Of a DNA stretch of 64,000 bases, positions 25,195 through 64,000 are shown piece by piece. The position numbers and the translations under genes are program-made. This stretch comes from Streptomyces pseudovenezuelae (GTDB lineage Bacteria > Actinomycetota > Actinomycetes > Streptomycetales > Streptomycetaceae), in the NCBI RefSeq assembly GCF_001513955.1, contig NZ_KQ948146.1:98476-162475 (forward strand), in the 5' to 3' direction. The first letter of the stretch is position 1, and each line of letters begins with the position of its first letter. Below the pieces are notes generated by a model, which saw nothing but the letters and a program-made list of their open reading frames with translations, was not told where the DNA came from and did no database searches.

Positions 25195-27549
25195 TCAGCG
25201 GGCGTGCGGGGCGCGGTGCGGGGGCTGGCTCGGGGCCGGGCGGTCCCTCGGTGCCGGGACGGGGCGGACGACGGGCCCGTCCCCGTTCACGGTGAGCGGC
25301 GTGCCGTGATGGCGGATCGTCAGGGGAGCGCCCGCCATCAGGGTGTACGTCGCCTTGTCCGGGCCGATCTCGACCCGCAGGCAGCGGCCCATGAGCTGCA
25401 GGTTGAAGGCGAGGCGGCTGAACCGCTCGGGCAGGCGGGGTGCGAACCGCAGGGACTCACCGTCGCGGCGCAGACCGCCGAACCCGGCGACGAGGGCCGT
25501 CCAGGTGCCGGCGAGGGAGGCGATGTGCAGGCCGTCGCGGGTGTTGTTCTCCAGGTCGGCGAGGTCCATCAACGCCGCCTCGGCCGTGTAGGCGTAGGCG
25601 AGGTTCAGGTGTCCCGCGCGGGCGGCGACGACCGCCTGGACGCAGGCCGACAGGGAGGAGTCGCGTACGGTCAGGGGCTCGTAGTAGGCGAAGTTGCGGG
25701 CGATCTGCTCGTCGTCGTGGAACTCCTCGAACCAGCCGCTGCACAGGTACATCGCCAGCACCAGGTCAGCCTGCTTGACGACCTGCTTGCGGTAGATGTC
25801 GAAGTAGGGGAAGTGCAGCATCAGCGGGTACTGGTCGGCGCGGGTGCCGGCGAAGTCCCACTGCTGGTAGCGGGTGAAGCCCGCGTGCTGCTCGTGCACG
25901 CCGAGGTCGTCGTTGTACGGGATGTGCACGGCCTCGGCGGCGTCCCGCCAGGCGGCGCTCTCCTCGTCGTCGACGCCGAGCGCTGCGGCCCGCTGCGGAT
26001 GCCGGGCGCAGACGTCGGCGGCCGCGAGGAGGTTCGCGCGGGCCATGAGGTTGGTGTACGTGTTGTCGTCGGCGACCGCGCTGTACTCGTCGGGGCCGGT
26101 GACACCGTCGATGTGGAAGACGCCGTGATGGTCGTGGTGGCCCAGCGAGCGCCACAACCGGGCCGTCTCCACGAGGAGTTCGACGCCGGTGTCCCGTTCG
26201 AAGTCCGTGTCGCCGGTGGCCTCGGTGTAGCGCACCACGGCGTCCGCGACGGCGGCGTTGACGTGGAAGGCGGCGGTGCCGGCGGGCCAGTACGCCGAGC
26301 CCTCCGAGCCCTCGATGGTTCGCCACGGGAACGCGGCGCCGTTCAGACCGAGTTGCACGGCGCGCTCTCGGGCGGCGGGCAGTGTCGTCTGCCGCCAGCG
26401 CAGGGCCTCGGCCACGGCACGCGGCTCGGTGTAGGTGAGCAGGGGCAGCACGAAGGTCTCGGTGTCCCAGAAGGCGTGCCCGTCATATCCGGAACCGGTC
26501 AGTCCCTTGGCGGGAATGGCCCGTTGCTCCGCACGGGCGCCCGCCTGGAGGACGTGGAAGAGGGCGAAGCGGACGGCCTGCTGGATCTCCTCGTCGCCGT
26601 CGACCTCGACGTCGGCGCGGGCCCAGAAGTCGTCGAGATAGCCGCGCTGTTCGTCCAGGAGTCCGTCCCAGCCGCTGTGGGCGGCGGCCGCCAGGGCCGC
26701 GTCGACCTGGTCGCTCATCGCGGGCCGGGAGCGGGTGCCGGACCAGCCGTGCGCGACCAGTTTCTCCACCCGCAGCCGCTGCCCCGGCTCCAGGACGGAG
26801 GTGACGGTCAGCCGGGCCAGGTCCACCGTCTCCTCGCTGCTCGTGGTGGTGCGTTCGGGCCCCTCGATCACGTGGTCGGCGGCCACGGCGACCCGCAGTC
26901 CGCTGTGCCGGGTGCGGTGCACCAGCCGCAGCCGGGTGCCGTCGGCGAAGCCCTCCTCGTGCTCCAGCGGGGACTTCAGGACCTTGGAGGCGCGCGGGTC
27001 GCCGTTCGCCCCGGGCAGACTCTCGTTGGTGACGAGTTCGGACTGGATCACCACACGGGTGCGGCTGTCGACGGGCTCCACCTCGTAGGCCACCGCGGCG
27101 ACGGCCCGCTGGGCGAGCGAGACGAGCCGGGTCGAGCGCACCCTTATCCGCGAGCCGGCCGGCGAGATCCACTCGCAGGACCGCTCCAGGACGCCCCGGC
27201 GCAGGTCGAGGCAGCGTTCGTGGGCCACCAGACGGCCGTAGCGCAGGTCGAAGGGCTCGTCGTCGACGAGGAGCCGCACGATCTTGCCGTTGGTGACGTC
27301 GATGACGGTCTGACCGGACTCCGGATAGCCGTAACCGGCCTCGGCGTACGGCAGCGGGTGCAGTTCGTGGACGCCGTTGAGGTAGGAGCCGGGCAGGCCG
27401 TGCGGCTCGCCCTCGTCGAGGTTGCCGCGCCAGCCGACATGGCCGTTGGACAGGGCGAACACGGACTCGCTCTGGGCCAGGACATCGAGGTTGAGAGAGG
27501 TCTCGCGGACGGCCCAGGGCTCGACGGTGTAGGAGCGGTGGGTGATCAC
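25195..27549 (-). CDS. Glycoside hydrolase family 65 disaccharide phosphorylase
   Basis: A 784-residue enzyme of the GH65 type (maltose, trehalose or kojibiose phosphorylases), which splits an alpha-glucoside with phosphate to beta-glucose 1-phosphate. The layout is an N-terminal beta-sandwich (to about 270), an (alpha/alpha)6 catalytic barrel and a C-terminal beta-sheet. Seen are GYDGHAFWDTETFVLPLL, the general-acid Glu in GVTGPDEYS (about residue 487) and KQADLVLAMYL. The GTG start overlaps the stop of the phosphoglucomutase gene (GTGA), so the product would be passed directly to that enzyme. The exact disaccharide cannot be assigned from sequence. Confidence 0.92.
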   Translation of the reverse strand: MITHRSYTVEPWAVRETSLNLDVLAQSESVFALSNGHVGWRGNLDEGEPHGLPGSYLNGVHELHPLPYAEAGYGYPESGQTVIDVTNGKIVRLLVDDEPFDLRYGRLVAHERCLDLRRGVLERSCEWISPAGSRIRVRSTRLVSLAQRAVAAVAYEVEPVDSRTRVVIQSELVTNESLPGANGDPRASKVLKSPLEHEEGFADGTRLRLVHRTRHSGLRVAVAADHVIEGPERTTTSSEETVDLARLTVTSVLEPGQRLRVEKLVAHGWSGTRSRPAMSDQVDAALAAAAHSGWDGLLDEQRGYLDDFWARADVEVDGDEEIQQAVRFALFHVLQAGARAEQRAIPAKGLTGSGYDGHAFWDTETFVLPLLTYTEPRAVAEALRWRQTTLPAARERAVQLGLNGAAFPWRTIEGSEGSAYWPAGTAAFHVNAAVADAVVRYTEATGDTDFERDTGVELLVETARLWRSLGHHDHHGVFHIDGVTGPDEYSAVADDNTYTNLMARANLLAAADVCARHPQRAAALGVDDEESAAWRDAAEAVHIPYNDDLGVHEQHAGFTRYQQWDFAGTRADQYPLMLHFPYFDIYRKQVVKQADLVLAMYLCSGWFEEFHDDEQIARNFAYYEPLTVRDSSLSACVQAVVAARAGHLNLAYAYTAEAALMDLADLENNTRDGLHIASLAGTWTALVAGFGGLRRDGESLRFAPRLPERFSRLAFNLQLMGRCLRVEIGPDKATYTLMAGAPLTIRHHGTPLTVNGDGPVVRPVPAPRDRPAPSQPPHRAPHAR

Positions 27550-28283
27550 GCCTCCCCTCCCAGCTCGGCGAGGCCCTTCACGACGATGTCCGCGCCGTGC
27601 TCGTACAGGGCGTCGGCCTGTCCGACGCGGTCGAGGCCGACGACGAACCCGAAGCCTCCCGCGCGGCCGGCGTCCATGCCGGCGAGGGCGTCCTCGAAGA
27701 CGGCGGAGCGGGGGGCGTCCAGGCCCAGGTCGTGGGCGGCGGCGAGGAAGGTGTCGGGGTGGGGCTTGCCGGGCAGCTTGCGCTCCGCCGCGACCACGCC
27801 GTCGATGCGTACGTCGAAGAGGTCCTCGGCGTCGATCGCGCGCAGTACGTCACGGCAGTTGGCGCTGGAGGAGACGATCGCGGTGCGCAGCCCCTGGGCG
27901 CGGGCCGCGCGGATGTAGGTCAGGGTGTCGTCGTAGGCCTCGACGCCGTCCGTGCGGATCTTCTCCAGCACGAGAGCGTTCTTGCGGTTGCCGAGGCCGT
28001 GGACCGTCTCCGCGCCCGGGGGGTCCTCCGGCTTCCCGTCCGGCAGTCCGATGCCGCGGGAGGCGAGGAAGGTGCGCACACCGTCGGCCCGCGGCAGGCC
28101 GTCGACGTACTCGTCGTAGTCGTGGTCGTCGAAAGGCCGGAAGTGTTCGCCCTCGCGTTCACGCAGGAACGCGTCGAACATCTCCTTCCACGCGGCCGCG
28201 TGTACGACGGCCGTCCTGGTGACGACCCCGTCGAGGTCGAACAGGCAGGCCTTGATCTCTTCTGGCAGACCGAGCTCCGTCAT
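27546..28283 (-). CDS. Beta-phosphoglucomutase-like HAD hydrolase
   Basis: A 245-residue HAD-superfamily protein that would convert beta-glucose 1-phosphate to glucose 6-phosphate. HAD motif I is FDLDGVVTRTA, where the catalytic Asp pair is present. Motif II is AIVSSSANC, motif III includes KLPGKPHPDTFL, and motif IV is AVFEDALAGMDAGRAGGFGFV. A cap domain lies between motifs I and II, as in PgmB. ATG 28283 is chosen by alignment of the N terminus; the ribosome binding site is weak. It is coupled to the GH65 gene by a 4-bp overlap, which is the usual pairing for these two enzymes. Confidence 0.9.
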   Translation of the reverse strand: MTELGLPEEIKACLFDLDGVVTRTAVVHAAAWKEMFDAFLREREGEHFRPFDDHDYDEYVDGLPRADGVRTFLASRGIGLPDGKPEDPPGAETVHGLGNRKNALVLEKIRTDGVEAYDDTLTYIRAARAQGLRTAIVSSSANCRDVLRAIDAEDLFDVRIDGVVAAERKLPGKPHPDTFLAAAHDLGLDAPRSAVFEDALAGMDAGRAGGFGFVVGLDRVGQADALYEHGADIVVKGLAELGGEA

Positions 28284-28325
28284 ACACAACCCGTTCCCTG
28301 CGAGGCGCGGTGTCAACAGACGGAT

Positions 28326-28766
28326 TCAGTCGTGCGGGAAGGAGTGGTGCTCGTGGGCCACCAGCCAGCGGCCGCGCTCCTTGCGCAGGCCGAAGGTGAG
28401 CCTGAGCCGGAAACCGGGGTGGGCGGCGAGTTCCTCCGGGGTGGCACAGCGCACCAGGGCGTGTGCGTAGGCGACGTCGGTCCCGGCGGTGATGTGGAGG
28501 GACTCGATGTCGAAGCAGGCGCCCTGGGCCTGCCACGCGAAGAACGGGGGCCAGGCCGCGCGGTAGGCGGCGAGGCCCCGGATGCCGTGGTGGGGCGGCG
28601 GCACGTCGAACATCACGAGGTCCTGGGCGTGGTCGGCGATCACGCCCGCGAGGTCGCCGCGGTGCACGGCCGCGGCCCAGCCGGTGATGAGGGCGCGGAT
28701 CTGCGCCTCGTCGTCGCCCGTGCCGGAGGTGTCCGAGGCGTCGGACTCGTCGGAGTACTGGGGCAC
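28326..28766 (-). CDS. NTF2/SnoaL-like protein
   Basis: A 146-residue single-domain protein with the SnoaL-like cone fold (IRALITGWAAAVHRGDLAGVIADHA, DVPPPHHGIRGLAAYRAAWPPFF). GTG 28766 has AAGGAG 8 nt upstream. It lies 42 bp upstream of the phosphoglucomutase gene on the same strand and may share its transcript. Proteins of this fold can be isomerases, hydrolases or ligand binders; no activity can be assigned. It is divergent from the kinase at 28844. Confidence 0.82.
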   Translation of the reverse strand: MPQYSDESDASDTSGTGDDEAQIRALITGWAAAVHRGDLAGVIADHAQDLVMFDVPPPHHGIRGLAAYRAAWPPFFAWQAQGACFDIESLHITAGTDVAYAHALVRCATPEELAAHPGFRLRLTFGLRKERGRWLVAHEHHSFPHD

Positions 28767-29527: not shown

Positions 29528-31360
29528 TCAGCAGGCGGACAGCGTCAGTTCCGGCTCGCCGTGGGCGTCGCCCGCCGGGTCGCCGATCCACGCCGTGAAC
29601 GCCTCGGTGCGTACCGTCAGTCCGGCCCCGTCGCGTGCGAAGGCCGCCGTCAGGACCGCGCCGGGGCCGTAGCGCACGGCGAAGGCGTGCAGGTCGTGCG
29701 GGGTGTCCGGGACGGGGCCGGCCTCCAGGGCCGTGGAGCTGACCAGGTGGCGCCAGCCCTCGTCGGGGTTGCCGTAGCCGCGGGGGTCGGCGGCCAGCGC
29801 GAAGGCGGCCTGCTCCTGGGTCGCCTCCGAGCGGGCGTCGAAGTGGTCGGTGCCCTCCGCCGCGGGGTGCGTCAGCCGCAGCGCGCCCACGGAGGTCACC
29901 TCGCCCTCGGCCGTGCGGCGCACCCGGTCGCCGTCGTCCTCGGCGTACGGCAGCCCGGCCAGGAGGTAGGGGGTGCCGGGGAGGCGTTCCACGGTGACCG
30001 TGGTCCACAGGCTGGTGCCGTCCGTGACGTACAGGGACTGCAGATGGCGCAGCACATGGTCGCGGCCGACGACCGGCTTGGTGACCAGCTTGGCCGCGAG
30101 GCCGTCGGTGCGCACGTCACGGACCCGGACCTCGCCCATGGGACGGCACAACAGGAAGCCGTCGACGACCGGGCCGAAGCCGTGCTGGCGGTTGACGGCG
30201 GCGGGCAGGTAGTAGGTGCCCGCGGCCTCGACGAGCGCCGGGGTCATCGCGGAGTCGAAGGCCACCGAGACCGTGCCCGCGCGCAGTTGGTGGCGGGCGG
30301 TCGTGGTGGACGGCTCCCGGTGCCAGCGTGTGGTGTCCTGGATCTGCCAGACCAGCATCCAGGCGAAGTGGCCGTCCACCCCGCCGTCCTCCTTGACCGC
30401 GTGCCGGGCCCAGCGGCTGTCGCCCCGGTAGCGGCCGAGGTCGGCGCCGACACGGGCGCCGAAGTAGCGCAGGCCGAGGACCGACTCGAAGGCGGAGTGC
30501 TGCTCGCTGTAGCGCGGACCGCCGTTGTCGAAGCCGCCGTTGGTCAGGCGGGCGTCGAGGTAGCGGGCCAGGGTGTCGCCGTCCTCGGCGAAGATCTCCT
30601 CGCCGCTGACCCGGTGGGCCTGGGCGAGGAAGGACAGGGAGATCGGGCCGTAGTTGTTGTCGTAGGCGCCGCCGTGCTCGGGGGGCAGGGCCGCGCCGCG
30701 GTCCACGACGCGGTGGGCGCGGATCTCGTCGCGGTACAGGCGCAGGGCCCGCGCGCGCACCGACTCCGCCTCCGGGCCCGGCAGATGGGCGGCCAGCATC
30801 AGGCCGCCGACCACACAGCCGATCGCCTGGTTGCCCGCCTCCTGCGGGTTGAAGAAGGTCGCCTCGGTCAGCCAGCGCCAGTATCCGCGGGCCACGTCGA
30901 GGAGTTCGGCCCGCGGGCCGTCGTCGACGAGCCCGTCCGCCGCGTCCAGCACGTTGACCGCCTGGAGCAGCGCCCACACCGTGCTCGGCCAGTCGCCGAT
31001 GGGGTGCGCGCCCGCCGCCAGGGTGTAACGGGCGTACGGCAGACCGGAGTTGCGCAGCTTCAGGTTCGGGTAGCCGGGATTGTCGTCCCGGTGGACCCGC
31101 TCGCGCAGATGGAAGGCGAGGCTGCGGGCGACCGCCTCCGGCAGTCTCGGGTCCTTGCCGCGCTGCCAGGCGAACGCGAGCAGGGAGGTGATGCCGAGCG
31201 AGGTGTCCCCGATGTCGTCGACGCAGTCGGGGTGTTCGAGGTTGCCCTCGGGCGTGAGGCGCGCGAGGGCCTGCTCGGTGACGTCGGCGAGGACGGCGTC
31301 GTACGCCTCCGGGCTGTCCGGCAGGTCGTGCAGCGGCGCGAGCTGGCGTGGGAGGTGCAA
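29528..31360 (-). CDS. Uncharacterised glycan-active-like protein, second of a pair
   Basis: About 610 residues, cytoplasmic (no signal peptide). The N-terminal half is helical, with aromatic motifs recalling an (alpha/alpha) toroid (DIGDTSLGITSLLAFAWQRG, YDNNYGPISLSFLAQAHRVSG, FDNGGPRYSEQHSAFESVLG). The C-terminal half (about 340 on) is beta-rich with GFGPVVDGFLLCRPMGEVRV. This architecture is shared by polysaccharide lyases and some glycosidases, but I cannot assign a family. TTG 31360 is preferred because GAAGGG lies 9 nt upstream; GTG 31393 would overlap the preceding gene and lacks a signal. It follows that gene by 13 bp and is the last gene of the uptake operon. Confidence 0.65.
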   Translation of the reverse strand: MHLPRQLAPLHDLPDSPEAYDAVLADVTEQALARLTPEGNLEHPDCVDDIGDTSLGITSLLAFAWQRGKDPRLPEAVARSLAFHLRERVHRDDNPGYPNLKLRNSGLPYARYTLAAGAHPIGDWPSTVWALLQAVNVLDAADGLVDDGPRAELLDVARGYWRWLTEATFFNPQEAGNQAIGCVVGGLMLAAHLPGPEAESVRARALRLYRDEIRAHRVVDRGAALPPEHGGAYDNNYGPISLSFLAQAHRVSGEEIFAEDGDTLARYLDARLTNGGFDNGGPRYSEQHSAFESVLGLRYFGARVGADLGRYRGDSRWARHAVKEDGGVDGHFAWMLVWQIQDTTRWHREPSTTTARHQLRAGTVSVAFDSAMTPALVEAAGTYYLPAAVNRQHGFGPVVDGFLLCRPMGEVRVRDVRTDGLAAKLVTKPVVGRDHVLRHLQSLYVTDGTSLWTTVTVERLPGTPYLLAGLPYAEDDGDRVRRTAEGEVTSVGALRLTHPAAEGTDHFDARSEATQEQAAFALAADPRGYGNPDEGWRHLVSSTALEAGPVPDTPHDLHAFAVRYGPGAVLTAAFARDGAGLTVRTEAFTAWIGDPAGDAHGEPELTLSAC

Positions 31361-31373
31361 GGAGATCAGCCCT

Positions 31374-33065
31374 TCATGCCGGGGAGCCGGCACGCAGTGT
31401 GAGAGTCAGTGTCTGCGGTCCGTGCCCGCCGAGGTGGACGCGGTTCCCGGTCGTCGCGTCGGTGCCGCCGGCCACGGTGTAGTCCTGCCCGGGGTCGTAG
31501 CGCAGCACCTCGCTCCGGTCCGGGCCGACGAGCGGTTCGCCCGTCTCGACGACGGCCTCGACCCGGATCTCGTCGTCGCCGACGCGGTAGGTCAGGGGCT
31601 CGGTCGTCATGCACCAGCGTCCGTCGCCGAGCGGTACGGCGCCCTGCGGCTCGCCGCCCGGCCGGAAGGTCAGTTCGAGGGACCACGGCACCGACGGGCC
31701 GCTGATGTCGATCCGCAGGTCGGCCCCGTCGTCCCGCAGGTCGACCTCGACCCGCGTGGTGTGGGAGACCTCGTCCTGGGGGCGGTTGGGGAAGTCCATC
31801 GCCGCGGAGAAACGGCCCTCGTCCACCAGACGGTAGGTGCCGTCGTCGCGCCTGCGGTCCTTCGGGAGCGGCTGGTAGTAGGCGCTGGTGAGGGTCTGGG
31901 TGAGCCGGTACCGGTGGTCGGCGAGCCGTTCCGTCTCGGCGGCGCGGAACGGGCCCAGGTCGAAGAAGCCGCGGGAGAGCCGGACCGCGTCGAGGACCGC
32001 GGCACCGGCGAACAGGCGCAGGAAGGTGGGGTTGCAGGCCAGGCCCGAGCGGATGCGCCGGTGCTCGGGCACGTCTGAACCGCCGTACACGACGGTGTGC
32101 GCGGTCTCCGAGACGTGGGCGGCGAGGCGTGCGGTGGGGAGGTACCGGTCGCGCGGGAGTTCCTCCGGGTCCGGAGCGGGCAGGGCGCGTGCCAGATCCG
32201 GGGTGAGGAGGGTCTGGGCGAGCAGGTCGGGATCGTGGATGCCGTCGGCGGCCGCCAGACGGGCCGCGCGGGCGAAGTCGCCCCGGCCGGTGCGGATCGC
32301 GAGCAGCCGGTAGTGCGGCAGGTAGGGCCACAGCGCGAACGACTGCCTCTGGTCCTGGCGGCGCGAGTGGACGGTCTCCACCGTGCCGTCCGGCCTGATC
32401 AGGTCCAGGGTCGCGGTGAGGTTGCGTTCGACGGCGTCCACCAGCTCGGGACGCCCGAGCACCTCGGCCAGCAGCAGCAGCGCCGGGTTGGTCACGATGG
32501 ACGCGTAGACGGCGCTGCGTTCCGAGTACAGGCCGTCGGCGTCGATGTCGACGCCCTCGGCGAGCCACTCCTCGGCGCGGGCGAGCAGCCGGTGGTCGGG
32601 GAACGAGCGGTGCAGCCGGGCCAGCGCCGCGGACAGCTCCCAGCGGTGGTTGGGGGTGTGCACCCCACCGGTCAGGAGGCTCGCGGTGGCGGCGCCGGCG
32701 ATCTCGGCGAGCGCGGCCGTGACGTCGGCGAGTTCGGGCCCCGCGGCCGCCGCCAGGACGTGCGCGTCGCACACGTCGTTGACGGTGAACGCGGAGTCCG
32801 GCGGCGACTGGACGTTGTCGCCGCCCGCGAAGAGGCCGGAGGGCGTCTGCACGGACCGCAGGGCACGCAGGTGGGTCAGCGCGCCGGCGACGGCCCGCTC
32901 GCTGCCGTGCAGGGCCGACTCCGGCGAGCGGTACGCCGCGACCAGGGTCTTCACCCGCCGGGCCAGGGCGCGGTGCGGCTCGATGAACTCCGCCGACGGG
33001 TCGGCCGACCCGTCGGCTGCGAGCGCTGCCGCGCGGACGAACTCGTGGTCGAGCGGGAACGGCAA
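31374..33065 (-). CDS. Uncharacterised toroid-plus-beta-sandwich protein, candidate glycan lyase or hydrolase
   Basis: About 563 residues, no signal peptide. The helical N-terminal part (to about 370) contains DSAFTVNDVCDAHVLAAAAG and GGVHTPNHRWELSAALARLH; an NHRW motif of this kind occurs in heparinase-like and related polysaccharide lyases. SRRQDQRQSFALWPYLPHY and RSGLACNPTFLRLF follow. The rest is a beta-sandwich (WSLELTFRPGGEPQG, HGPQTLTLTLRAG). I read it as an intracellular oligosaccharide lyase or hydrolase of unknown family. TTG 33065 has AAGGA 7 nt upstream and begins 2 bp after the permease stop, so it is tightly coupled to uptake. Confidence 0.65.
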   Translation of the reverse strand: MPFPLDHEFVRAAALAADGSADPSAEFIEPHRALARRVKTLVAAYRSPESALHGSERAVAGALTHLRALRSVQTPSGLFAGGDNVQSPPDSAFTVNDVCDAHVLAAAAGPELADVTAALAEIAGAATASLLTGGVHTPNHRWELSAALARLHRSFPDHRLLARAEEWLAEGVDIDADGLYSERSAVYASIVTNPALLLLAEVLGRPELVDAVERNLTATLDLIRPDGTVETVHSRRQDQRQSFALWPYLPHYRLLAIRTGRGDFARAARLAAADGIHDPDLLAQTLLTPDLARALPAPDPEELPRDRYLPTARLAAHVSETAHTVVYGGSDVPEHRRIRSGLACNPTFLRLFAGAAVLDAVRLSRGFFDLGPFRAAETERLADHRYRLTQTLTSAYYQPLPKDRRRDDGTYRLVDEGRFSAAMDFPNRPQDEVSHTTRVEVDLRDDGADLRIDISGPSVPWSLELTFRPGGEPQGAVPLGDGRWCMTTEPLTYRVGDDEIRVEAVVETGEPLVGPDRSEVLRYDPGQDYTVAGGTDATTGNRVHLGGHGPQTLTLTLRAGSPA

Positions 33066-33067
33066 GG

Positions 33068-33970
33068 TCAGTCCTTCAGTCCGGCGTTGATGTCGGCACC
33101 CATGACGTACTTCTGGAAGACCAGGAAGATCGCGATCAGCGGGATCATCGAGATGACCGACGCGCCCAGCAGGACCGACCAGTTGATGTTCTGCGCGCCG
33201 ACGATGCTCTGGATGCCGATCTGGACGGTGAACTTGTTGGGGTCGTTCAGCATCAGCAGCGGCCAGATGTAGTCGTTCCAGCGCCACTGGAAGGACAGGA
33301 TGGCGAGGGTCAGCATGATGGGCCGGGAGAGCGGCACCATGATCCGCAGGAAGATCGACAGCTCCTTGGCGCCGTCGATGCGCGCGGCTTCCACGAGTTC
33401 GTCGGGGACCGTCAGGAAGAACTGGCGGAACATGAAGCAGCCGGTCGCCGTGAGCACGGCCGGGAGGATGATGCCGGCGAACGAGTTGTAGAGGCCGAGG
33501 TTGCGGACCACCAGGAACTCCGGGGCGAGCATGACCTCGCCCGGCAGCATCGTGGTGGCCAGGATGCAGATGAAGAACGCCTTGAGCCATCTGTTGTCGT
33601 ACTTGGCCAGCGCGTATCCGGTGCAGCAGCTGACCCCCACCGTGAGGATCGTCGTGATCACACACACGAGGGCCGTGTTGATGAAGTACTGGGAGAAGTT
33701 GGCGCTGTCCCACGCCGCTCTGAACCCGGACAGGGTGGGGTTGTGCGGGACCAGCGTCAGCGGATAGGAGAACAGGTCGCTGGCCGGCTTGAAGGAGCTG
33801 AGGACGAACCACAGCACCGGGAAGCCGTACAGGCACGCCATGATCCACAGCAGTGTCGTCGCGGACACCGCCTGCCGGAGCCCACCACTGGCCGTCTTGC
33901 GGGGACGCTTCCCGGGGACTCGCCGTCCGGAGCCGACGTCGGCCGGGCGCGGGATGTCTGTGGTTGTCAT
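33068..33970 (-). CDS. Sugar ABC transporter permease (MalG type)
   Basis: A 300-residue inner-membrane permease with six hydrophobic segments after a basic N-terminal tail. The EAA loop that contacts the ATPase is EAARIDGAKELSIFLRIMVPLSRP (in the segment near residue 195-220). The N-terminal end of the periplasmic loop (LSGFRAAWDSANFSQYFINT) is typical of the CUT1 MalG class. ATG 33970 overlaps the stop of the partner permease gene (ATGA). Together with that partner and the lipoprotein it imports an oligosaccharide; no ATPase gene is present in the operon. Confidence 0.93.
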   Translation of the reverse strand: MTTTDIPRPADVGSGRRVPGKRPRKTASGGLRQAVSATTLLWIMACLYGFPVLWFVLSSFKPASDLFSYPLTLVPHNPTLSGFRAAWDSANFSQYFINTALVCVITTILTVGVSCCTGYALAKYDNRWLKAFFICILATTMLPGEVMLAPEFLVVRNLGLYNSFAGIILPAVLTATGCFMFRQFFLTVPDELVEAARIDGAKELSIFLRIMVPLSRPIMLTLAILSFQWRWNDYIWPLLMLNDPNKFTVQIGIQSIVGAQNINWSVLLGASVISMIPLIAIFLVFQKYVMGADINAGLKD

Positions 33971-34887
33971 CGGTTCTCCACCCGCCGGTTGACGATCAGC
34001 TGGACGACCGCGACGGCCATCAGGATGAGCATGAGCACGAAGGACGCGGCGCTCGCGTAGCCGATCTGGCCCCGTTTGAAGCCGGTCTCGTAGATGTACT
34101 GGACGAGCAGGTTGTTCGAGGTGCCGGGTCCGCCGTTGTTGAGGGCGACGAACACCGGGTACTCCTTCATCGAGTTGATCGTGTTGAGCAGGATCACGAT
34201 GAACGAGGTGGGCGCGATGCTCGGCAGCGTGATGCTGAAGAACTGGCGCCAGGGGCCGGCGCCGTCGAGCGAGGCGGCCTCGTAGTACGACACCGGCACG
34301 TTCTTGATCGCCGCGATGAACAGCAGCATGGTGAAACCGGTCCAGGCCCAGGCCGCCGCCATCACCACCACGAGCAACGAGAGGTCCGCGTTGGACTGCC
34401 ACGGAACGGCGTCCCCGCCGAACTTCTCGATGATGTAGTTCACCAGGCCGAAGTTCTCGCCGAACATCCACCGCCACAGGACACCCACGACGATGGGCGA
34501 CAGCAGCCACGGGATGAAGAAGAGGACACGGGCGACCGACCCGCCCTTGGCGTGCTTGCTCACCACCAGGTTGGCGGCGAGCAGGGAGACCACGAAGTTC
34601 AGCGGGACGAAGAGGACGGTGTACAGCAGCGTCCGGGTCAGCGCGTCGTAGAACGTGGAGTCCCCGAACAGGTTCTGGTAGTTGTCCAGCCCGACCCACT
34701 GGAACACCCCCACGCCCGTGTAGTTCGTGAAGGAGTAGATGAGCCCGATCACCGCCGGCCAGACGAAGAACAGCGCGAAGAGCACGACGTTGGCCGCGAT
34801 GAGGACGAGCGGCGCAAGGGTGTACTTACTGCGTCTCCTGGGCGGACTCGGCGGGCTCACAGACACGTCCGAGGCGCGTTTTGTCAT
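33967..34887 (-). CDS. Sugar ABC transporter permease (MalF type)
   Basis: A 306-residue permease with six transmembrane segments. The EAA motif reads EAASLDGAGPWRQFFSITLPSI and the following FIVILLNTINSMKEYPVFVALNNGGPG is typical of CUT1 MalF proteins. ATG 34887 has an AGGAAG element close upstream. It lies 125 bp after the solute-binding protein gene and overlaps the MalG-type gene by 4 bp. Confidence 0.93.
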   Translation of the reverse strand: MTKRASDVSVSPPSPPRRRSKYTLAPLVLIAANVVLFALFFVWPAVIGLIYSFTNYTGVGVFQWVGLDNYQNLFGDSTFYDALTRTLLYTVLFVPLNFVVSLLAANLVVSKHAKGGSVARVLFFIPWLLSPIVVGVLWRWMFGENFGLVNYIIEKFGGDAVPWQSNADLSLLVVVMAAAWAWTGFTMLLFIAAIKNVPVSYYEAASLDGAGPWRQFFSITLPSIAPTSFIVILLNTINSMKEYPVFVALNNGGPGTSNNLLVQYIYETGFKRGQIGYASAASFVLMLILMAVAVVQLIVNRRVENR

Positions 34888-35012
34888 CTTCCTGACTCCG
34901 TGCTGGTGGAAGGGGATTGCGGTGGGCTCGGGCCGTGAGCCCTGCGACACGTGGGCGGCCGGGCCGGGCGGCGGGGTCGGGACACCGCCGCCCGGGCGCT
35001 GGTGGCCTGTGA

Positions 35013-36335
35013 TCAGCCGCCGACCTGCTGGTTGTAGCCGTCCACGATGTTCTGCAGGGCCTTGTCGGCCGACTGCTGGCCGTTGATCGCCTTGCCGAGC
35101 TCCGTCTTGGTCGGGTCCTCGGTGATGCTCTTGCCCTTCAGCACCCAGTTCGTCTGCGCGCTGTTGAAGTAGCCGGAGATCGGGGCGTAGAGCGGGATCT
35201 CCTCGTTGTAGAGCTTGAACGCCGCCTGCGCCGCATCGGACTTGAAGGGGTACGTCGGGTTCAGACCGCTCTCGACCGGCAGGAAGCCGGACGCCTCGCA
35301 CAGGGCCTTGTAGTGGGCCGGCTCGTACAGCCAGGACAGGAACTTCGTCGCGGCCTTGGACGCGTCGCCGTTGTTGTTGAAGCCGACCACCATGCCGCCG
35401 CTGTTGACGTCACTGGCCTGCACCGGCTGGGCGGGGGTCGGGACGCTGGCCCACTCGAACTTCTTGATGCTGTCCGCGAAGGAGGCGACCTGCCACACGC
35501 CGGACCAGTAGGCGACCACGTCACCGCTCTGGAACATGGCGGACGGGTCGGCGCCGCTGGTCCACACCGACTTCGGCATGGTCTTGTCGTCGTTCCATCC
35601 GACGAAGGTGTTCACGGCCTTCTTGGTCGCCGCGTCCACCGAGAACTTGCCGGAGTCGTCGGCGTGGACGTACTTGCCGCCCATCTCGTACACCATGGCG
35701 CGCAGCCGCGAGGGCGACTGGTCGAAGGTCAGGGAGTACTTGGCGCCGGTCTTCTCGCGGACCTTGTTGGCCGCGGCGATGAAGTCGGTCCAGGTCCAGG
35801 TCTTCGACGGCTCGGTCGGGAAGGAGACGCCCGCCTTCTCGAACAGCGACTTGTTGATGAACAGGCCGGACGCGGTGACGTCCGAGGGGATGGACAGCAC
35901 CTTCCCGGACGAGTCCTTCGCGAGGAAGTTCTGGTTGATGTTGTTGCTCTTCTTGTTGGCGATGGAGCTGAGGTCGATCAGCTTGCTCGACCAGATCGGG
36001 TCCAGCGCCGGCACGGCCGCCACGTCGGGCAGGGAGTTCGCCTGCGCGGCGTTGTGCAGCTTCGTGGTGTAGCCGTCGTAGGGAATGTTGACGAGCTTGA
36101 GGTTGACGCCGGTTTCCTTCTTGTACTGCGCCACCATCTTCTTCCAGCCCGCGTCCTGCCCCGGAACCGTGGAGATCCAGAACGTCAGCGACTTGGAAGT
36201 GCCGCCGGAGCCGGAGTCCCCGCCACAGGCGGTGAGCGTCAGGGCACCTGCCGTGAGAGCGGCAGCGAGGGAAACCAGGCGGCGCGTGCCGCCGCGGCCG
36301 AGTCGGCGAGAGCGCCGCACACCCACAGTGGTCAT
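35013..36335 (-). CDS. Sugar ABC transporter solute-binding lipoprotein
   Basis: A 440-residue extracytoplasmic binding protein with an arginine-rich N-region and a lipobox ending LTLTAC (lipidated Cys37). The mature protein has the CUT1 family-1 fold: KSLTFWISTVPGQDAGWKKMV, NSLPDVAAVPALDPIW, the hinge FINKSLFEKAGVSFP and VAYWSGVWQVASF. It should capture an oligosaccharide and deliver it to the two permeases downstream. ATG 36335 has AAGGGA 7 nt upstream. The promoter region carries a LacI-type operator at 36569-36581. Confidence 0.93.
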   Translation of the reverse strand: MTTVGVRRSRRLGRGGTRRLVSLAAALTAGALTLTACGGDSGSGGTSKSLTFWISTVPGQDAGWKKMVAQYKKETGVNLKLVNIPYDGYTTKLHNAAQANSLPDVAAVPALDPIWSSKLIDLSSIANKKSNNINQNFLAKDSSGKVLSIPSDVTASGLFINKSLFEKAGVSFPTEPSKTWTWTDFIAAANKVREKTGAKYSLTFDQSPSRLRAMVYEMGGKYVHADDSGKFSVDAATKKAVNTFVGWNDDKTMPKSVWTSGADPSAMFQSGDVVAYWSGVWQVASFADSIKKFEWASVPTPAQPVQASDVNSGGMVVGFNNNGDASKAATKFLSWLYEPAHYKALCEASGFLPVESGLNPTYPFKSDAAQAAFKLYNEEIPLYAPISGYFNSAQTNWVLKGKSITEDPTKTELGKAINGQQSADKALQNIVDGYNQQVGG

Positions 36336-36568
36336 CTTCGATCCCTTTTTTTCGTCGTAGGGGACGGAGCACGGCGCCGACGGAGGCGGCACTGGTGCAG
36401 TTTGCAGGAGGTTTGCTTTCCGAGGGCGCGGCCTCGCCCGGCCGCGTCATCCTGACGGACAAGGGTCCCCGGCCGCTGTGGCCGCCACCGCACGGGCACG
36501 CCCTCGTGCGGTTGCCGTACGTCGAGTACGGGCGGGACGCTCGCCCAAGCCGGCGTCCCGGCCGACTT

Positions 36569-36615
36569 AGAAAGCGCTTGTCCGGACATTGGCAGACCGA
36601 GTCCGAAACCGTCAA
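36569..36615 (-). promoter_or_regulatory. LacI-type operator and candidate promoter of the sugar-uptake operon
   Basis: The minus strand carries ACAAGCGCTTTCT (36569-36581), the plus strand reading AGAAAGCGCTTGT, with a LacI-type AAGCGCTT core. A TTGACG (minus strand, 36610-36615) lies upstream as a possible -35, inside the 3' end of the ROK gene. The operator is about 235 bp before the lipoprotein start, so the leader would be long. Confidence 0.6.
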
Positions 36616-37745
36616 TCCTTCTTCCGCGCCGCCTCGGTCACGGTTTGGACTCCTCGGGCGACCGCGAGGCGGGCGGCGCCCACGACGGTGCCGAGATCGC
36701 CCACCTGACTGCTGACCACCTCGGTGGGCCAGCTCAGTCGCTCCAGCTCGGCCCGCACACCGGGCAGGAGCTGCGGAAACGAGCCCGTGCTGCCGCCCAG
36801 CACGAGCAGTCCCGGGTCCAGGACGGCGGTCACGGCGGCGGCCAGCCGGCCCACGTCCACGGCATGTCGGTCGACGACCGCGCGGGCCGCGTCGCTGCCC
36901 CGCTGGGCGAGGGCGAAGAGCTGCTCGGCCGTGCGGGGGCGTGCGCCGTCGGATTCCGGCCAGGCCGCCCCGGCCCGGCGCAGCAGGGACCGGGACCCGA
37001 TGTACTCCTCCAGGGCCTCGTGGCGGGGCTCCAGGCCGTCGTCCCAGGGGTAGGGCAGTCTGGCGAGCTCTCCGGCGGCGCCGTTGGCACCGGCCAGCAC
37101 CTGGCCGCCCACGACGATGCCGAGACCGATACCGACGCCGATCCGCAGGTAGCCGAAGGTGTGACGGCCGCGGGCCGCGCCCTCGTGCAGCTCGGCGAGG
37201 GCGGCGCAGTTGACGTTGTTCTCCAGGTGGACGGGCACGCCGGGCGGCAGCGCGACGGCCACCGCGTCGAAGACGGGGCCGGCCTTGGCGGTGGCGGGGC
37301 GCATCTTCTGCGGCGCGGTGACGTCACCGACGGCCACCACGATGGTGCGCAGCGGAGCGTCGGCGGGCAGCGCGGAGAGCGCCTCCCGTACGACGTCGGC
37401 GGCGTCCTCCCGGGGGCCGGTGGCCTCGGCGAGCAGGGTGCCGTCCAGGGCGCAGCCGCGGACCCGGGTGAGGGCGGGGCCGAGGTCGACGGCGAGCACC
37501 GCGCCCGCGGCCGGGCCGAGGCGGTAGACGGCGGCGCTGCGGCCGGTGGCGCCGGAGGAGGTGCCCGAGTGGGCGGCGAGGTGCACGCCCTCCAGTTCGG
37601 CGACGGCGGAGGAGACCGTCGGCTTGGACAGCCGCGCGAGGCTCGCCAGCTGCGGCCGCGTCGCGGTGCCCGCCTGGGCAAGCACGGCGAAGACCGCGCT
37701 CGCGCTTTCGGTCAGACGGGGGGCTCTCACCACGTCGTATTCCAC
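36612..37745 (-). CDS. ROK-family transcriptional regulator
   Basis: A 377-residue regulator with an N-terminal winged helix-turn-helix (TRPQLASLARLSKPTVSSAVAELE, about residues 29-52) and a C-terminal ROK sugar-kinase-like domain (VLAVDLGPALTRVRG, VHLENNVNCAALAE, YLRIGVGIGLGIVVGGQ). The zinc-binding CxCGxxGC cluster of classical ROK proteins is absent; the equivalent stretch reads PRHEALEEYIGSRSLL. GTG 37745 follows GGGGG 4 nt upstream. It is divergent from the BadF-type kinase across a strong inverted repeat and is likely to control that gene and perhaps the uptake operon downstream. Confidence 0.9.
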   Translation of the reverse strand: MEYDVVRAPRLTESASAVFAVLAQAGTATRPQLASLARLSKPTVSSAVAELEGVHLAAHSGTSSGATGRSAAVYRLGPAAGAVLAVDLGPALTRVRGCALDGTLLAEATGPREDAADVVREALSALPADAPLRTIVVAVGDVTAPQKMRPATAKAGPVFDAVAVALPPGVPVHLENNVNCAALAELHEGAARGRHTFGYLRIGVGIGLGIVVGGQVLAGANGAAGELARLPYPWDDGLEPRHEALEEYIGSRSLLRRAGAAWPESDGARPRTAEQLFALAQRGSDAARAVVDRHAVDVGRLAAAVTAVLDPGLLVLGGSTGSFPQLLPGVRAELERLSWPTEVVSSQVGDLGTVVGAARLAVARGVQTVTEAARKKD

Positions 37746-38042: not shown

Positions 38043-38942
38043 GTGCAGGACACCGCACCCCTGGTTGTCGGCATAGACGTGGGCGGCACCAAGACACAGC
38101 TCCGTGCCCTCGTCGGCGACACCCTTGTCGCCGACCACGTCCGCTCCAGCAGCGGCTGGCGGCCCCACGACCCGGTGGCCGCCGCCGGCTGGCTGGCCGC
38201 GCTGACCGCCGACGCGCTTCCGGCGGGCACCCGCCCGTCCTCCCTCGCCGTCGGCGGTCACGCCTGCGAGACCCCGCGCCAGTGCGCGCAGATCCGCACC
38301 GCCCTCCAACTCCACTTCGACGCGCCCGCGCTGGTCGTGGGAGACGCCGAACTCCTGGTCCCCGCGGCGGGACTGGACAAGGGGGTCGGCCTGGTCGCCG
38401 GCACCGGCTCGGTCGCCGTGGGCCGGTTCCCCGACGGCACACCGGTCCAGGTCGGCGGCTGGGGCGCGCTCCTCGGCGACGAGGGCGGTGCCGCCGGTCT
38501 GGTCCGCGAGGCCGTACGGGCCGTCTGGGGCGCGCACGACCGCGGCGAGGAGCCCGACGCGCTGGCACTCGGTCTGCTGTCCGGGTTCGACGTCCCGGAC
38601 GTACCCGCGCTCGGTGCCGCGCTGGAACACGCCACGGCCGCCTCCGCCGACTGGGGCCGGCACGCCCCGGCCGTCTTCGCCGCCGCCGAGGCCGGGTCCC
38701 CGCTCGCCCGCACCGTGATCGCCGAGGCGGGCCGCGCCCTGGCCGCGCTCGTCGAACGGCTCGCCGCCCGCGGGGTGGTGGTCGACGACGTCGTGGTCGC
38801 GGGCAGTACCGTCCTCGCCCAGCCGTCGCTGTACGACGCGTTCGCGTCGGCGCTCGCGGACGGCGTGCCGACGGCACGGCCGCGCCCCCTGCGGGCACCT
38901 CCGGTGGACGGCGCGGTGGCGATGGCCCGTTCACTTCTGTGA
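38043..38942 (+). CDS. BadF/BadG-type ATPase, N-acetylglucosamine-kinase-like
   Basis: A 299-residue protein of the ASKHA superfamily. The phosphate-1 motif is GIDVGGTKTQLRAL, the adenosine side has DDVVVAGSTVLAQ, and the family segment is LVAGTGSVAVGRF with GGWGALLGDEGGAAGLVREAV. It resembles eukaryotic-type N-acetylglucosamine kinase, so phosphorylation of an amino sugar or hexose is likely, but the substrate is not proven. GTG 38043 follows GAAAGAGG. It is divergent from the ROK regulator and shares the inverted-repeat operator. Confidence 0.87.
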   Translation: MQDTAPLVVGIDVGGTKTQLRALVGDTLVADHVRSSSGWRPHDPVAAAGWLAALTADALPAGTRPSSLAVGGHACETPRQCAQIRTALQLHFDAPALVVGDAELLVPAAGLDKGVGLVAGTGSVAVGRFPDGTPVQVGGWGALLGDEGGAAGLVREAVRAVWGAHDRGEEPDALALGLLSGFDVPDVPALGAALEHATAASADWGRHAPAVFAAAEAGSPLARTVIAEAGRALAALVERLAARGVVVDDVVVAGSTVLAQPSLYDAFASALADGVPTARPRPLRAPPVDGAVAMARSLL

Positions 38943-39113: not shown

Positions 39114-41045
39114 ATGCCGTCATCCGCCGGGCAGCACTCCCCCGCGCCGCTCACCGAACGCGCCATGAGGCGAAGGGGATTCCTCAAGACGTCCCTGGGC
39201 GCCTCGGCCGGCGTCCTGGCCGCGCCCACCTTCGCCTCCTGGCTTGGCGCCGCGGACGCCAAGGCCGCCACCGCCGCGCTCGCCTTCGTGGACGACTACA
39301 AGTCCAACGTCATGGCGAACCTGACGCCCGAGACGAACGCGGTGGTGCGCGCCCTCGGCGGCTTCGCCCGCATATGGAAGACCGGCGCCGCCTGGAACAC
39401 CGGCACCCCGCTGCGGCCCGAGATCCTGCGCGCCAACATGCGCTACTGCGCCCGCGTCACCAAGGCGCGCACCCAGGCGGAGGCCAAGGACGCCTTCCTC
39501 TACGACCGCCAGCACCAGAGCTACGCCATGATCGGCGGCCTCGGCCCGCTCGCCGGCCTCTACCGGTCCGGCGCCAAGGCGGTCACCTCGATCACCAGCG
39601 CGCCCGACACCACCCCGGCGACGACGATCAGCGACGCCGTCCCGGCCGACGCCCCCGCGGGCTCCGCGCTCGGCGCCGGCTCCTACGACTCCTCGCTCGG
39701 CCTGGTGGCCAAGCTGGTCGACACCGTGCGCGGCCCGTACGCCTCCGGCAACCCGGGCAAGTACGCCTTCCAGTACCCGCGCCCGTGGCGCATGAACGAG
39801 GACAGCCAGGTCGTCGACACCGGCGCCAAGGACGCGCTCGGCTTCCCGGTCTACGACTCCGAGGTGATCGTCGCCCCCCAGCTGCTGCGCCAGCGCAACA
39901 CCTCCCCGGTGGACGACGGCGGCTTCCCCAGCGGCCACACCAACGCCTTCCACCTGGCGGGCCTCGCGTTCGCGTACGCCGTGCCCGAGCGCTTCCAGGA
40001 ACTGGTGACCCGCGCGTTCGAGCTGAGCCACACCCGGATCATGTCCGGCATGCACTCGACGGTCGACGTCATGGGCGGCCGCATCATGGCCACCGCGCTG
40101 GCCGCCGCCACCCTGGCCGACTCCGCGAACGCCGACCTCAAGGCCGCGGCGCGGGCCCAGGCGCTGCAGTACTTCACCGAGCGGACCGGCACCACGGCCG
40201 ACACCCTCTTCGCCTACGCCCACTCGGACACCGCCGACGCGTACGCGGACCGGGACGCCAACGCCCGCTCCGTCAAGCCCCGCCTGACCTACGTACTGCA
40301 CCGGGAGGGCGGCAACGAGCCGTTCACCGTGCCCAAGGGGGCCGAGGTGCTGCTGGAGACGCGTCAGCCCTACCTGGACGCGGGACAGCGCCGTGAGGTG
40401 CTGCGGACCACCGGGCTGCCCTCGGGCTATGTCCTGCTGGACGGCTTCGAGCAGTGGGGCCGGCTCGACCTGTTCACCGCGGCGGACGGTTACGGCTCCT
40501 TCGACTCCGACGTCACCGTCACCCTGGACGCGGCCGCGGGCGGCTTCCACGCGGCCGACGCCTGGCGCAACGACATCGACGGCTGCGGCGGCCTGACCAA
40601 GAAGGGCAGCGGCACGCTCACCCTGACGGGACACAACCGCTACACCGGCGGGACCGTGCTCAAGGAAGGTGCGCTGGTCGCCGGCTCGGCGCACGCACTC
40701 GGCCACGGCGACGTGCGGGTACAGGGCGGCAAGCTGACGCTGGGCAGCACCTCGCTCCAGGTCCACGGCACGTACAGCCAGGAGTCCGGCGCGCTGGAGC
40801 TGACCCTGCGCTCGGGCCAGGAGCCGGTCCTGGAGGTCACCCGGCGCGCGGTGCTGGGCGCCGGCAGCGTGCTCTCGCTGCAGCTCGACGCGCACAGGCC
40901 GCCGAAGGCCGGACACACGGTCCGGGTGCTCGGCTGTCACGGACTGCGCGGCCAGTTCGACCGCGTCGAACTGAACTCCGACAGCCTGCGGGCCGTACCC
41001 GTCTACACGACGGACGGTCTGTCGGTACGACTCCTGAAGCGGTGA
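39114..41045 (+). CDS. Tat-exported PAP2 acid phosphatase with autotransporter-type repeat
   Basis: A 643-residue secreted protein. Tat signal RRRGFLK is near residue 20, and a second in-frame ATG at 39165 would start just before it. The PAP2 catalytic triad motifs are all present: KYAFQYPRP (about residue 215), PSGHTNAFH (about 272) and TRIMSGMHSTVD (about 303-316). The region from about 480 carries GGLTKKGSGTLTLTGHNRYT followed by GGTVLKEGALV, which matches the autotransporter-associated beta-strand repeat, and the rest is beta-rich. It should hydrolyse phosphomonoesters outside the cell. The repeat is unusual in a Gram-positive protein. Confidence 0.88.
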   Translation: MPSSAGQHSPAPLTERAMRRRGFLKTSLGASAGVLAAPTFASWLGAADAKAATAALAFVDDYKSNVMANLTPETNAVVRALGGFARIWKTGAAWNTGTPLRPEILRANMRYCARVTKARTQAEAKDAFLYDRQHQSYAMIGGLGPLAGLYRSGAKAVTSITSAPDTTPATTISDAVPADAPAGSALGAGSYDSSLGLVAKLVDTVRGPYASGNPGKYAFQYPRPWRMNEDSQVVDTGAKDALGFPVYDSEVIVAPQLLRQRNTSPVDDGGFPSGHTNAFHLAGLAFAYAVPERFQELVTRAFELSHTRIMSGMHSTVDVMGGRIMATALAAATLADSANADLKAAARAQALQYFTERTGTTADTLFAYAHSDTADAYADRDANARSVKPRLTYVLHREGGNEPFTVPKGAEVLLETRQPYLDAGQRREVLRTTGLPSGYVLLDGFEQWGRLDLFTAADGYGSFDSDVTVTLDAAAGGFHAADAWRNDIDGCGGLTKKGSGTLTLTGHNRYTGGTVLKEGALVAGSAHALGHGDVRVQGGKLTLGSTSLQVHGTYSQESGALELTLRSGQEPVLEVTRRAVLGAGSVLSLQLDAHRPPKAGHTVRVLGCHGLRGQFDRVELNSDSLRAVPVYTTDGLSVRLLKR

Positions 41046-60161: not shown

Positions 60162-60183
60162 GAAGGTCAGACTCCCACATGAT

Positions 60184-60287
60184 TTCTTTCGACGTAAAAA
60201 CAACATGCCCAGATTAAGGCGGCGAGGCGGTACTGAAAAGATGTTGACCGACCTCTTGACGGGTGGATTCTTTCGCAACAAAAGTAA
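60184..60287. promoter_or_regulatory. Paired ROK operators in a divergent promoter region
   Basis: Two 20-bp sites with the same orientation and the pattern TTCTTTCG-N4-AAAA-N2-AA lie at 60184-60203 and 60268-60287, exactly 84 bp apart (about eight helical turns). One is close to each divergent start (60161 and 60331). Each is an imperfect dyad around the N4. Confidence 0.7.
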
Positions 60288-60330
60288 GTGGCCGAGGACG
60301 AGCCGCCACCGCAGACGAGGGAGTCTCCCG

Positions 60331-61296: not shown

Positions 61297-61312
61297 CCCG
61301 GAAGGACTCGAC

Positions 61313-62245: not shown

Positions 62246-62255
62246 GGGACTCCTG

Positions 62256-63596: not shown

Positions 63597-63625
63597 TCCC
63601 GCGACCAGTGAAGGGCACGCACTTC

Positions 63626-64000
63626 ATGACGTTCTCCCTCGGCATCGTCGGCGCCGGCCAGTTCTCCGGCCAGTTCGCGACGCTGTTCCAGGCCCACCCC
63701 GGCGTCGGCGACGTGTACGTCACCGATCTGCTGCCCGAACGCGCCGAGCAGCTCGCCTCGGCGCAGGGACTGGCCGGCACCTTCCCCACCTACGAGGCCA
63801 TGCTGGAGTCGAAGGAGGTCGACGCGGTCGCGATCTTCACCCAGCGCTGGACGCACGGCCCCCTGGTGCTCCAGGGCCTGAACGCCGGCAAGCACGTGTA
63901 CTCCGCGGTCCCCATGGCCATCACCACCGAGGAGATAGCGGCGATCATCGACGCGGTCCGGGCGACCGGGCTGACGTACATGATGGGCGAGACCAGCCAG
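63626..64000 (+). CDS. Gfo/Idh/MocA-family oxidoreductase (3' end cut by window edge)
   Basis: The first 125 residues of a dehydrogenase. The Rossmann motif is FSLGIVGAGQFSGQFATLF, followed by VYVTDLLPERAEQLASAQGL and VDAVAIFTQRWTHGPLVLQG. The usual catalytic EKP motif is replaced, the segment reading HVYSAVPMAITTEE, a variant seen in some family members. ATG 63626 follows GAAGGG. It starts 29 bp after the binding protein stop in the same operon, so it probably acts on the imported sugar or its acid. Confidence 0.85.
   Translation, partial: MTFSLGIVGAGQFSGQFATLFQAHPGVGDVYVTDLLPERAEQLASAQGLAGTFPTYEAMLESKEVDAVAIFTQRWTHGPLVLQGLNAGKHVYSAVPMAITTEEIAAIIDAVRATGLTYMMGETSQ

Follow-up and report, generated by a model that had tools for sequence, protein, structure and literature searches.

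The importer operon and its occurrence

The window analysed here is a stretch of 64,000 nucleotides (nt) from Streptomyces pseudovenezuelae (contig NZ_KQ948146.1, positions 98,476 to 162,475), and the system in question is an operon of five minus-strand genes at 29528-36392. It encodes a solute-binding protein (SBP_A), permease 1 and permease 2 of a CUT1 importer, and then two further proteins, P2 and P1, in this order (Table 1). This operon probably serves an intracellular step in eating a glycan that contains uronic acid. As a preliminary description of this DNA had claimed, the lipoprotein and two permeases are tightly followed by P2 and P1: the intergenic gaps are 68, 8, 2 and 13 nt, depending on the permease starts chosen, and Pfam matches define the importer, with SBP_A matching SBP_bac_1/8 and both permeases matching BPD_transp_1. 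A plus-strand gene runs towards P1 and ends 27 nt from it; past this gene, the operon could continue on the minus strand only with a gene in between. A scan for promoters and terminators found nothing above chance.

Table 1. Genes of the operon and of its surroundings (window positions)
Feature	Position	Strand	Basis
CUT1 solute-binding lipoprotein SBP_A	35013..36392	-	SBP_bac_8 4.9e-33; lipobox-like LTACGGD in translation
CUT1 permease 1	33967..34944	-	BPD_transp_1 3.3e-20
CUT1 permease 2	33068..33958	-	BPD_transp_1 3.2e-18
P2, lyase-like, predicted toroid and beta-sandwich, no evident signal	31374..33065	-	NHRW; Foldseek, hhalign
P1, lyase-like, predicted toroid and beta-sandwich, no evident signal	29528..31360	-	Foldseek on model
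ROK-family regulator heading the conserved block	36612..37745	-	ROK 2.7e-26; MarR-like helix-turn-helix 0.0037
BadF-type sugar kinase, GlcNAc/MurNAc-kinase-like, divergent from ROK gene	38079..38942	+	BcrAD_BadFG 2.4e-14
Nucleoside/nucleotide kinase family gene converging on P1	28844..29500	+	NF006743 1.9e-98
Beta-phosphoglucomutase-like, outside the unit (optional neighbour)	27546..28316	-	TIGR02009 4.1e-48
GH65 phosphorylase-like, outside the unit (optional neighbour)	25195..27549	-	Glyco_hydro_65m 7.9e-138; PDB maltose/kojibiose phosphorylase

P1 and P2 fit no family that can be named, as had been proposed: neither gave a match in Pfam-A or NCBIfam at E ≤ 0.1 or, in a single-sequence search, to any PDB sequence at E ≤ 10. 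Yet P2 relatives were confirmed in 329 stretches in one scan of a genome collection. The best 80 of these, all titled Streptomyces save one 'Actinobacteria bacterium', were retained and compared by tblastn with the window genes at E ≤ 1e-15. Permease 2 and P2 were matched in all 80 loci, permease 1 in 79, SBP_A in 77, the ROK gene in 75 and the BadF gene in 74. Three loci (L042, L089 and L091) are truncated by contig ends, whereas L045 and L104 have no ROK and BadF matches, and L096 no BadF match, despite long flanks.

The two reading frames are genuine genes. In 80/80 loci P2 is open, with TTG (63) or GTG (17) as start codon. P1 is open in one frame in 65 of the 70 loci with a P1 match (GTG 43, TTG 17, ATG 5), and the rest of the 80 loci comprise one frameshifted copy (L077), four fragments and ten loci without a match. 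P1 was seen as fragmentary or frameshifted, with P2 kept, at L008 (G091), L020 (G287), L076, L078, L079 and L095 as well as at L077.

The proteins had been described as signal-less, and no evident signal was found in either, although the check was crude: a twin-arginine or lipobox pattern occurs in 4 of 89 P2 sequences (the distant L034 and L036, the close L066 and L090) and in none of 73 P1 sequences. N-terminal hydrophobicity discriminates badly, with values of 1.74 (L036) and 1.66 (L034) versus 1.55 (L046) and 1.53 (L048) in close relatives.

Among 101 genomes of the genus, SBP_A (cut-off E ≤ 1e-60) was present in 16, close P2 in 14, and P1 of nearly full length in 18 and fragmentary in a further two; three P2 relatives at 43% identity were counted apart. 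All 16 SBP_A genomes carry P2 and/or P1, and none has neither. Each of the 14 close-P2 genomes has SBP_A, and the remaining two SBP_A genomes (G026 and G033) have P1. Thus 11 of the 16 have both enzymes, 3 have P2 without intact P1 (G013, G091 with a degraded P1, and G099) and 2 have P1 only. Because each enzyme occurs alone behind the same importer, either may suffice, and the earlier statement that both must act on the imported oligosaccharide was too strong.

The importer itself is also replaced. In G067, G040, G014, G062 and G063 (loci L037, L187, L190, L192 and L193), P1 occurs without P2 and a different importer stands between the ROK gene and P1, which is an importer swap in place. The substitute SBP and permeases are 82-99% identical to those of L037, and those of L037 are <37% identical to the window's. 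Importer, P2 and P1 therefore seem to be interchangeable components of a single locus, and these swaps offer a natural experiment on the component that determines substrate specificity.

Among 396 genomes of the phylum, the P2 profile gave five matches, including two in a single other genus, and the P1 profile gave three, all in the window's genus and one a fragment. At L126 and L127, in another genus, the gene order is kept: the SBPs share 44% and 38% identity with that of the window, the P2 relatives 51% and 39%, and the permeases 56-59% and 63%. No P2 or P1 relatives were confirmed in viral contigs. Plasmid records comprised one from Streptomyces for each protein and two from the Firmicute Subdoligranulum for P2 (L129 and L130, 26-28% identical).

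Profile similarity, predicted folds and candidate residues

Comparison of family profiles with hhalign weakly relates both proteins to the heparinase II/III relatives of PF07940. Against a set of 15 PF07940 proteins, P1 scored 32.7 (E 0.0046) and P2 28.1 (E 0.024), E-values of single comparisons with shallow profiles that count somewhat against a firm assignment; the known fold pair of polysaccharide lyase family 8 (PL8) and PF07940 scored 25.2. Controls gave 20.3 (GH65, a glycoside hydrolase (GH) family), 12.6 (SBP), 19.5 (reversed P1), 15.6 (reversed P2) and 22.8 (reversed GH65). Sixty column shuffles each reached at most 22.7 (P1) and 22.2 (P2), a lenient control since shuffling destroys helix periodicity. 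Pfam matches at E ≤ 1 of 10 P2 and 59 P1 family members did not include PF07940.

No motif was supplied to these alignments. Nevertheless, N139-H140 of P2 falls on the Asn-His of the family and Y187 on its Tyr, at a spacing of 48, and N177 of P1 falls on the family Asn. By analogy with PL15 and PL39, the aligned Asn-His and Tyr are presumed to be catalytic residues in those uncharacterised PF07940 proteins. The likeness of the NHRW motif to polysaccharide lyases, noted in the preliminary description, is supported by this weak alignment. NHRW occurs in 89/89 P2 sequences, window included, at identities down to 25.7%. Only 34 of 563 P2 positions are invariant in this set, including H136-T-P-N139-H140-R-W142, E182-R-S and R236-Q-D. 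The Tyr187 column holds Tyr in 87/89, and both Subdoligranulum relatives have a Tyr one residue later.

In P1, N177, H229, Y233, Y237 and R283 are each found in 73/73 sequences. N177 is followed by Gln, and Y233 stands at +56, where the family Tyr is placed about 53-57 residues after the Asn/His in the cited part of PMC12088678. The spacing N177-H229-Y237 (52+8), found by eye, resembles the N-H-Y of PL8 (50+9) and PL23 (55+8), whereas an alternative trio, N177-Y233-H393 (56+160), also fits PL17 and PL39 (numbering and spacings as far as given in PMC12088678). Among the other histidines, H357 and H498 are kept in 73/73 and H393 in 72/73.

The PL8-like spacing is a lead, noticed after the PL8 of the same genome had been inspected. 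Assignment of P1 to PL8 by sequence was rejected: its score of 22.1 against 28 of 30 PL8 proteins lies within its own shuffles (maximum 29.8), and no match to PF02278 (Lyase_8) was found for P1 or P2 in Pfam scans that included family members. P2 scored 24.0 against PL8, just over its shuffle maximum of 23.3. With P1 and P2 profiles, no PL35 chain was matched by sequence in the PDB. The best PDB chain for the P1 profile had E 0.15 and was not trusted; P2 profiles hit one chain, the repeat protein 7rdr, through a helix repeat of 25-26 residues (E 6.7e-7/5.5e-5), which was not trusted either. P1 and P2 are not close paralogues, with no detectable profile similarity to each other (hhalign E 0.16 and 0.2), and they share at most the fold.

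The AlphaFold model of P1 (59 alignment rows; predicted local distance difference test (pLDDT) 67.6, predicted template modelling score (pTM) 0.67) shows a helical toroid and, after it, a beta-sandwich. Its best Foldseek matches in the PDB are two-domain lyases of PL39, PL21, PL17, PL15 and PL35, the chondroitinase 9o3q and human DSE1 (E 1.3e-8 to 4.5e-7); PL numbers partly follow titles and PMC12088678. VIA superposed 435-469 of the 610 residues on PL35, 9o3q and PL17 lyases at Z 16-17, with Z 17.4 over 440 residues at a root mean square deviation (rmsd) of 6.6 for PL35 GAGase VII and Z 16.9 over 435 at 5.3 for 9o3q.

The P2 model (58 rows; pLDDT 57.5, pTM 0.46) is poor. From it, Foldseek ranked PL35 GAGase II (2.4e-6), PL8 (1e-5) and PL15 (1.4e-5) first, followed at 2.8e-5 by 9o3q and the GH127 enzyme HypBA1 (rank 5). 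A toroid with an antiparallel beta-sandwich is thus predicted for P1 with high confidence, and the toroid and beta-sandwich fold is probable for P2. The helical barrel and beta-sandwich proposed earlier are borne out by the model of P1, while the weaker model of P2 points the same way.

Proposed route, substrate and alternatives

We lean slightly towards intracellular beta-elimination of an imported, uronate-containing oligosaccharide by P2 and P1. According to this proposal, a ROK-regulated CUT1 importer would take up an oligosaccharide with uronic acid, perhaps together with N-acetylhexosamine (HexNAc). P2 and P1, which would both have the (alpha/alpha)-toroid and antiparallel-beta lyase fold but be no more than distant relatives, would then cleave it in the cytoplasm. 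In P2, the carboxylate would be neutralised by Asn139 (with Arg236), and His140 and Tyr187 would serve as base and acid; for P1, the neutralising residue would be Asn177 and the base and acid would be His229 and Tyr237, in the manner of PL8/PL23. The BadF kinase may phosphorylate released HexNAc. The operon, its conservation and the co-occurrence of its parts are observed and the lyase fold is predicted, more firmly for P1 than for P2, whereas ROK regulation, cytoplasmic location, lyase chemistry, uronate substrate and the order of steps are what we infer.

Clues to the substrate come from neighbours. Among PDB proteins, the BadF kinase resembles N-acetylmuramic acid (MurNAc)/N-acetylglucosamine (GlcNAc) kinase (3e-12) and human NAGK (2e-10), which hints at an amino sugar. 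At L127, a ROK gene, a BadF kinase gene (36% identical), a SIS-domain gene and a NagB gene lie opposite SBP, permeases and the P2 relative; the SIS-domain gene is GlmS/NagB-II-like and was called by script as fused to an MFS part. By sequence resemblance, this gene set points to an amino sugar. GH88 (E ≤ 0.001) was found in 12/21 genomes with the locus versus 9/80 without it (p=2.9e-5), and strong matches alone in 8/21 versus 5/80 (p=6.6e-4); these p-values, like those below, are a guide only, since the sampled genomes are related and significance is overstated.

In 3/21 genomes (G033, G040 and G067), a PL8 is encoded some 12-13 kb away from P1, versus a rough expectation of about 0.08 genomes with PL8 that near if 1.5 copies are assumed; the G040 enzyme is closest to the S. 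coelicolor lyase 2wco (3.2e-232). A secreted PL8 would be a candidate supplier of the substrate, yet PL8 is rarer overall with the locus (13/21 versus 67/80, p=0.037).

Other P2 relatives stand beside GH35 (L125), GH2 and melibiase (L126) or GH95 (L127). Of the Subdoligranulum relatives, L129 has a GH2 and a Hepar_II_III_C match below threshold (0.0022) nearby, and L130 has GH3 in the same stretch. At L034 (in the window's genus, its P2 relative with a Tat-like start) and L125 (in another genus), P2 relatives lie beside a Gfo/Idh dehydrogenase, DUF993 and a xylose-isomerase-like TIM-barrel (Pfam). With neighbours this varied, the P2 family taken together may be used on several glycans. PDB relatives of SBP_A carry mixed names of oligosaccharide binders (best 3.2e-17), and no substrate could be called from them. 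A substrate like glycosaminoglycans (GAGs), with uronate and HexNAc, is rather unlikely in our estimate. Tentatively, and with less than even confidence, P2 and P1 may be founders of two new, interchangeable families of intracellular lyases, which Streptomyces would swap one at a time or jointly, as they would the importer, at one locus, for an unrecognised soil polymer of uronate and amino sugar, such as an exopolysaccharide of bacteria or fungi and not an animal GAG.

Several observations weigh against beta-elimination, in addition to the lower frequency of PL8 in genomes with the locus, the relatedness of the genomes and the oxidoreductase and DUF993 neighbours of some P2 relatives. Superpositions of P1 on lyases are loose (Foldseek template modelling (TM) score 0.30-0.45, rmsd 11-15 Å), and those of the poor P2 model are looser (TM mostly 0.2-0.36, rmsd 16-25 Å). 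Invariance of the candidate residues in P1 is weak evidence, since 247 of 610 positions are invariant, and hhalign left its active-site stretch unaligned to PL8. In P2, H136 and H140 are the only invariant histidines, with no beta-domain His as in PL12, PL15, PL17, PL21, PL35 and PL39; this conserved His of the heparinase II/III superfamily lies about 130-166 residues after the Tyr. The single GH88 match of this genome is on contig C6, while the window is on C3. Moreover, the top VIA matches of both models are sugar epimerases covering the toroid alone, with Z 19.7 over 295 residues (rmsd 3.5) for P1 and Z 14.3 for P2, a level that the tool calls common for helical folds.

These epimerase matches suggest another use of the same fold. 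One or both proteins could be uronosyl C5-epimerases like dermatan sulfate epimerase, and human DSE1 is indeed among the best Foldseek matches of P1 (rank 13, 1.8e-7), or they could be sugar 2-epimerases acting on the imported sugar, as the N-acylglucosamine and cellobiose 2-epimerases at the top of the VIA results would suggest. However, the 2-epimerase matches are confined to approximately residues 14-346 in P1 and 6-294 in P2, whereas lyases align in both domains, and the operon encodes no other cleaving enzyme. We consider epimerase activity improbable.

Hydrolysis of the oligosaccharide by toroid-fold glycoside hydrolases of a new family (GH88/GH127-type fold) is likewise a poor prospect. 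GH127 and GH88 structures are among the matches of both models, and six acids are invariant in P2 (D90, E170, D173, E182, D238 and E464), but the alignment made without motif input matched the Asn-His and Tyr of lyases.

P2 might also act on an oxidised (3-keto) sugar, as the eliminating enzyme in oxidoreductase-assisted glycoside breakdown, which we regard as very improbable. The gene neighbours at L034 and L125 would suit such a role. The L034 dehydrogenase is weakly like levoglucosan dehydrogenase (8e-17) and disaccharide 3-dehydrogenase (6e-7), far under curated cut-offs, and L036 has genes of similar size. However, the window operon contains no such gene; the 80 close loci were compared with window genes only.

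The remaining reading, that products of P1 and P2 feed the adjacent GH65 phosphorylase and beta-phosphoglucomutase on an alpha-glucoside substrate, finds support in their closeness in the window and in the resemblance of GH65 to maltose/kojibiose phosphorylase, but is scarcely credible: the opposite-strand kinase gene stands between, and the two genes, which overlap by 4 nt and always occur together, are found in only 36/80 loci (32/75 with >7.5 kb downstream, five loci having less), where they accompany 24/63 loci with intact P1 (L077 included) versus 8/12 without intact P1 (Fisher p=0.11, a negative trend). GH65 and beta-phosphoglucomutase are a separate optional module outside the importer unit. 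Of the new intracellular glycan breakdown route first suggested, the uncharacterised lyase-like proteins behind an importer stand, and the GH65 and beta-phosphoglucomutase part falls away. A small optional protein at 28326-28766, NTF2-like by guess, was also matched in 36/80 loci.

Comparison with known systems and further neighbours

P1 and P2 are new as two undescribed families, whereas the type of system has precedents, as far as the cited parts of the literature describe them. A literature search recognised no description of this locus, which is not proof of its absence from print. PMC13118837, in the part seen, mentions a ROK cluster with ngcEFG/xylose transport.

The GAG cluster of Streptobacillus moniliformis (Smon0115-0128) likewise encodes an SBP-dependent ABC importer together with lyases, of PL8 and of the PL12 heparinase II/III family, and its substrate combines uronate and amino sugar. 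It differs in having GH88 (UGL), which splits imported disaccharides, as well as KduD/KdgK/KdgA and a sulfatase; the window has no GH88 (PMC5430744, as far as the portion used here goes). Unlike those lyases, P1 and P2 are undescribed sequence families without evident signals. In the alginate 'pit' system of Sphingomonas sp. A1, an ABC importer is followed by cytoplasmic alginate lyases, and a PL5 toroid lyase of strain A1 is shown (PMC8286568, sections cited). However, that system is a Gram-negative superchannel for the alginate polymer, and no sequence relationship was found.

The PL35 GAG lyases GAGase II and VII are of comparable size and two-domain fold; GAGase II is the best Foldseek match of P2, and GAGase VII is among the full-length matches of P1. 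PL35, which has a Mn site, uses Asn, Tyr and a His of the beta-domain (PMC12088678, in the part available); by contrast, none of the invariant histidines of P2 lies in its beta-domain, and no sequence match was found. The Asn-His-Tyr order and spacing of P1, noticed by eye, resemble those of PL8/PL23 (same source, same part); the PL8 of its own genome reads H-x4-Y-x3-Y-G, and P1 reads H-x3-Y-x3-Y-G. Compared with PL8, P1 is shorter, has no evident signal and has no PF02278 match.

If P1 and P2 are lyases, UV absorbance near 235 nm would provide an assay for the function of an importer present in 16/101 sampled genomes of the genus, and the known lyases would gain two families that show no evident export.

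Two further features of the window may be mentioned. A PAP2-type phosphatase with PATR/autotransporter-type beta repeats at 39114-41045 was matched in 77/80 loci. At 59001-64000, a second importer cluster with a UgpA/GlcT-like permease and an SBP follows a regulator-like gene and continues into a dehydrogenase-like gene at the window edge.

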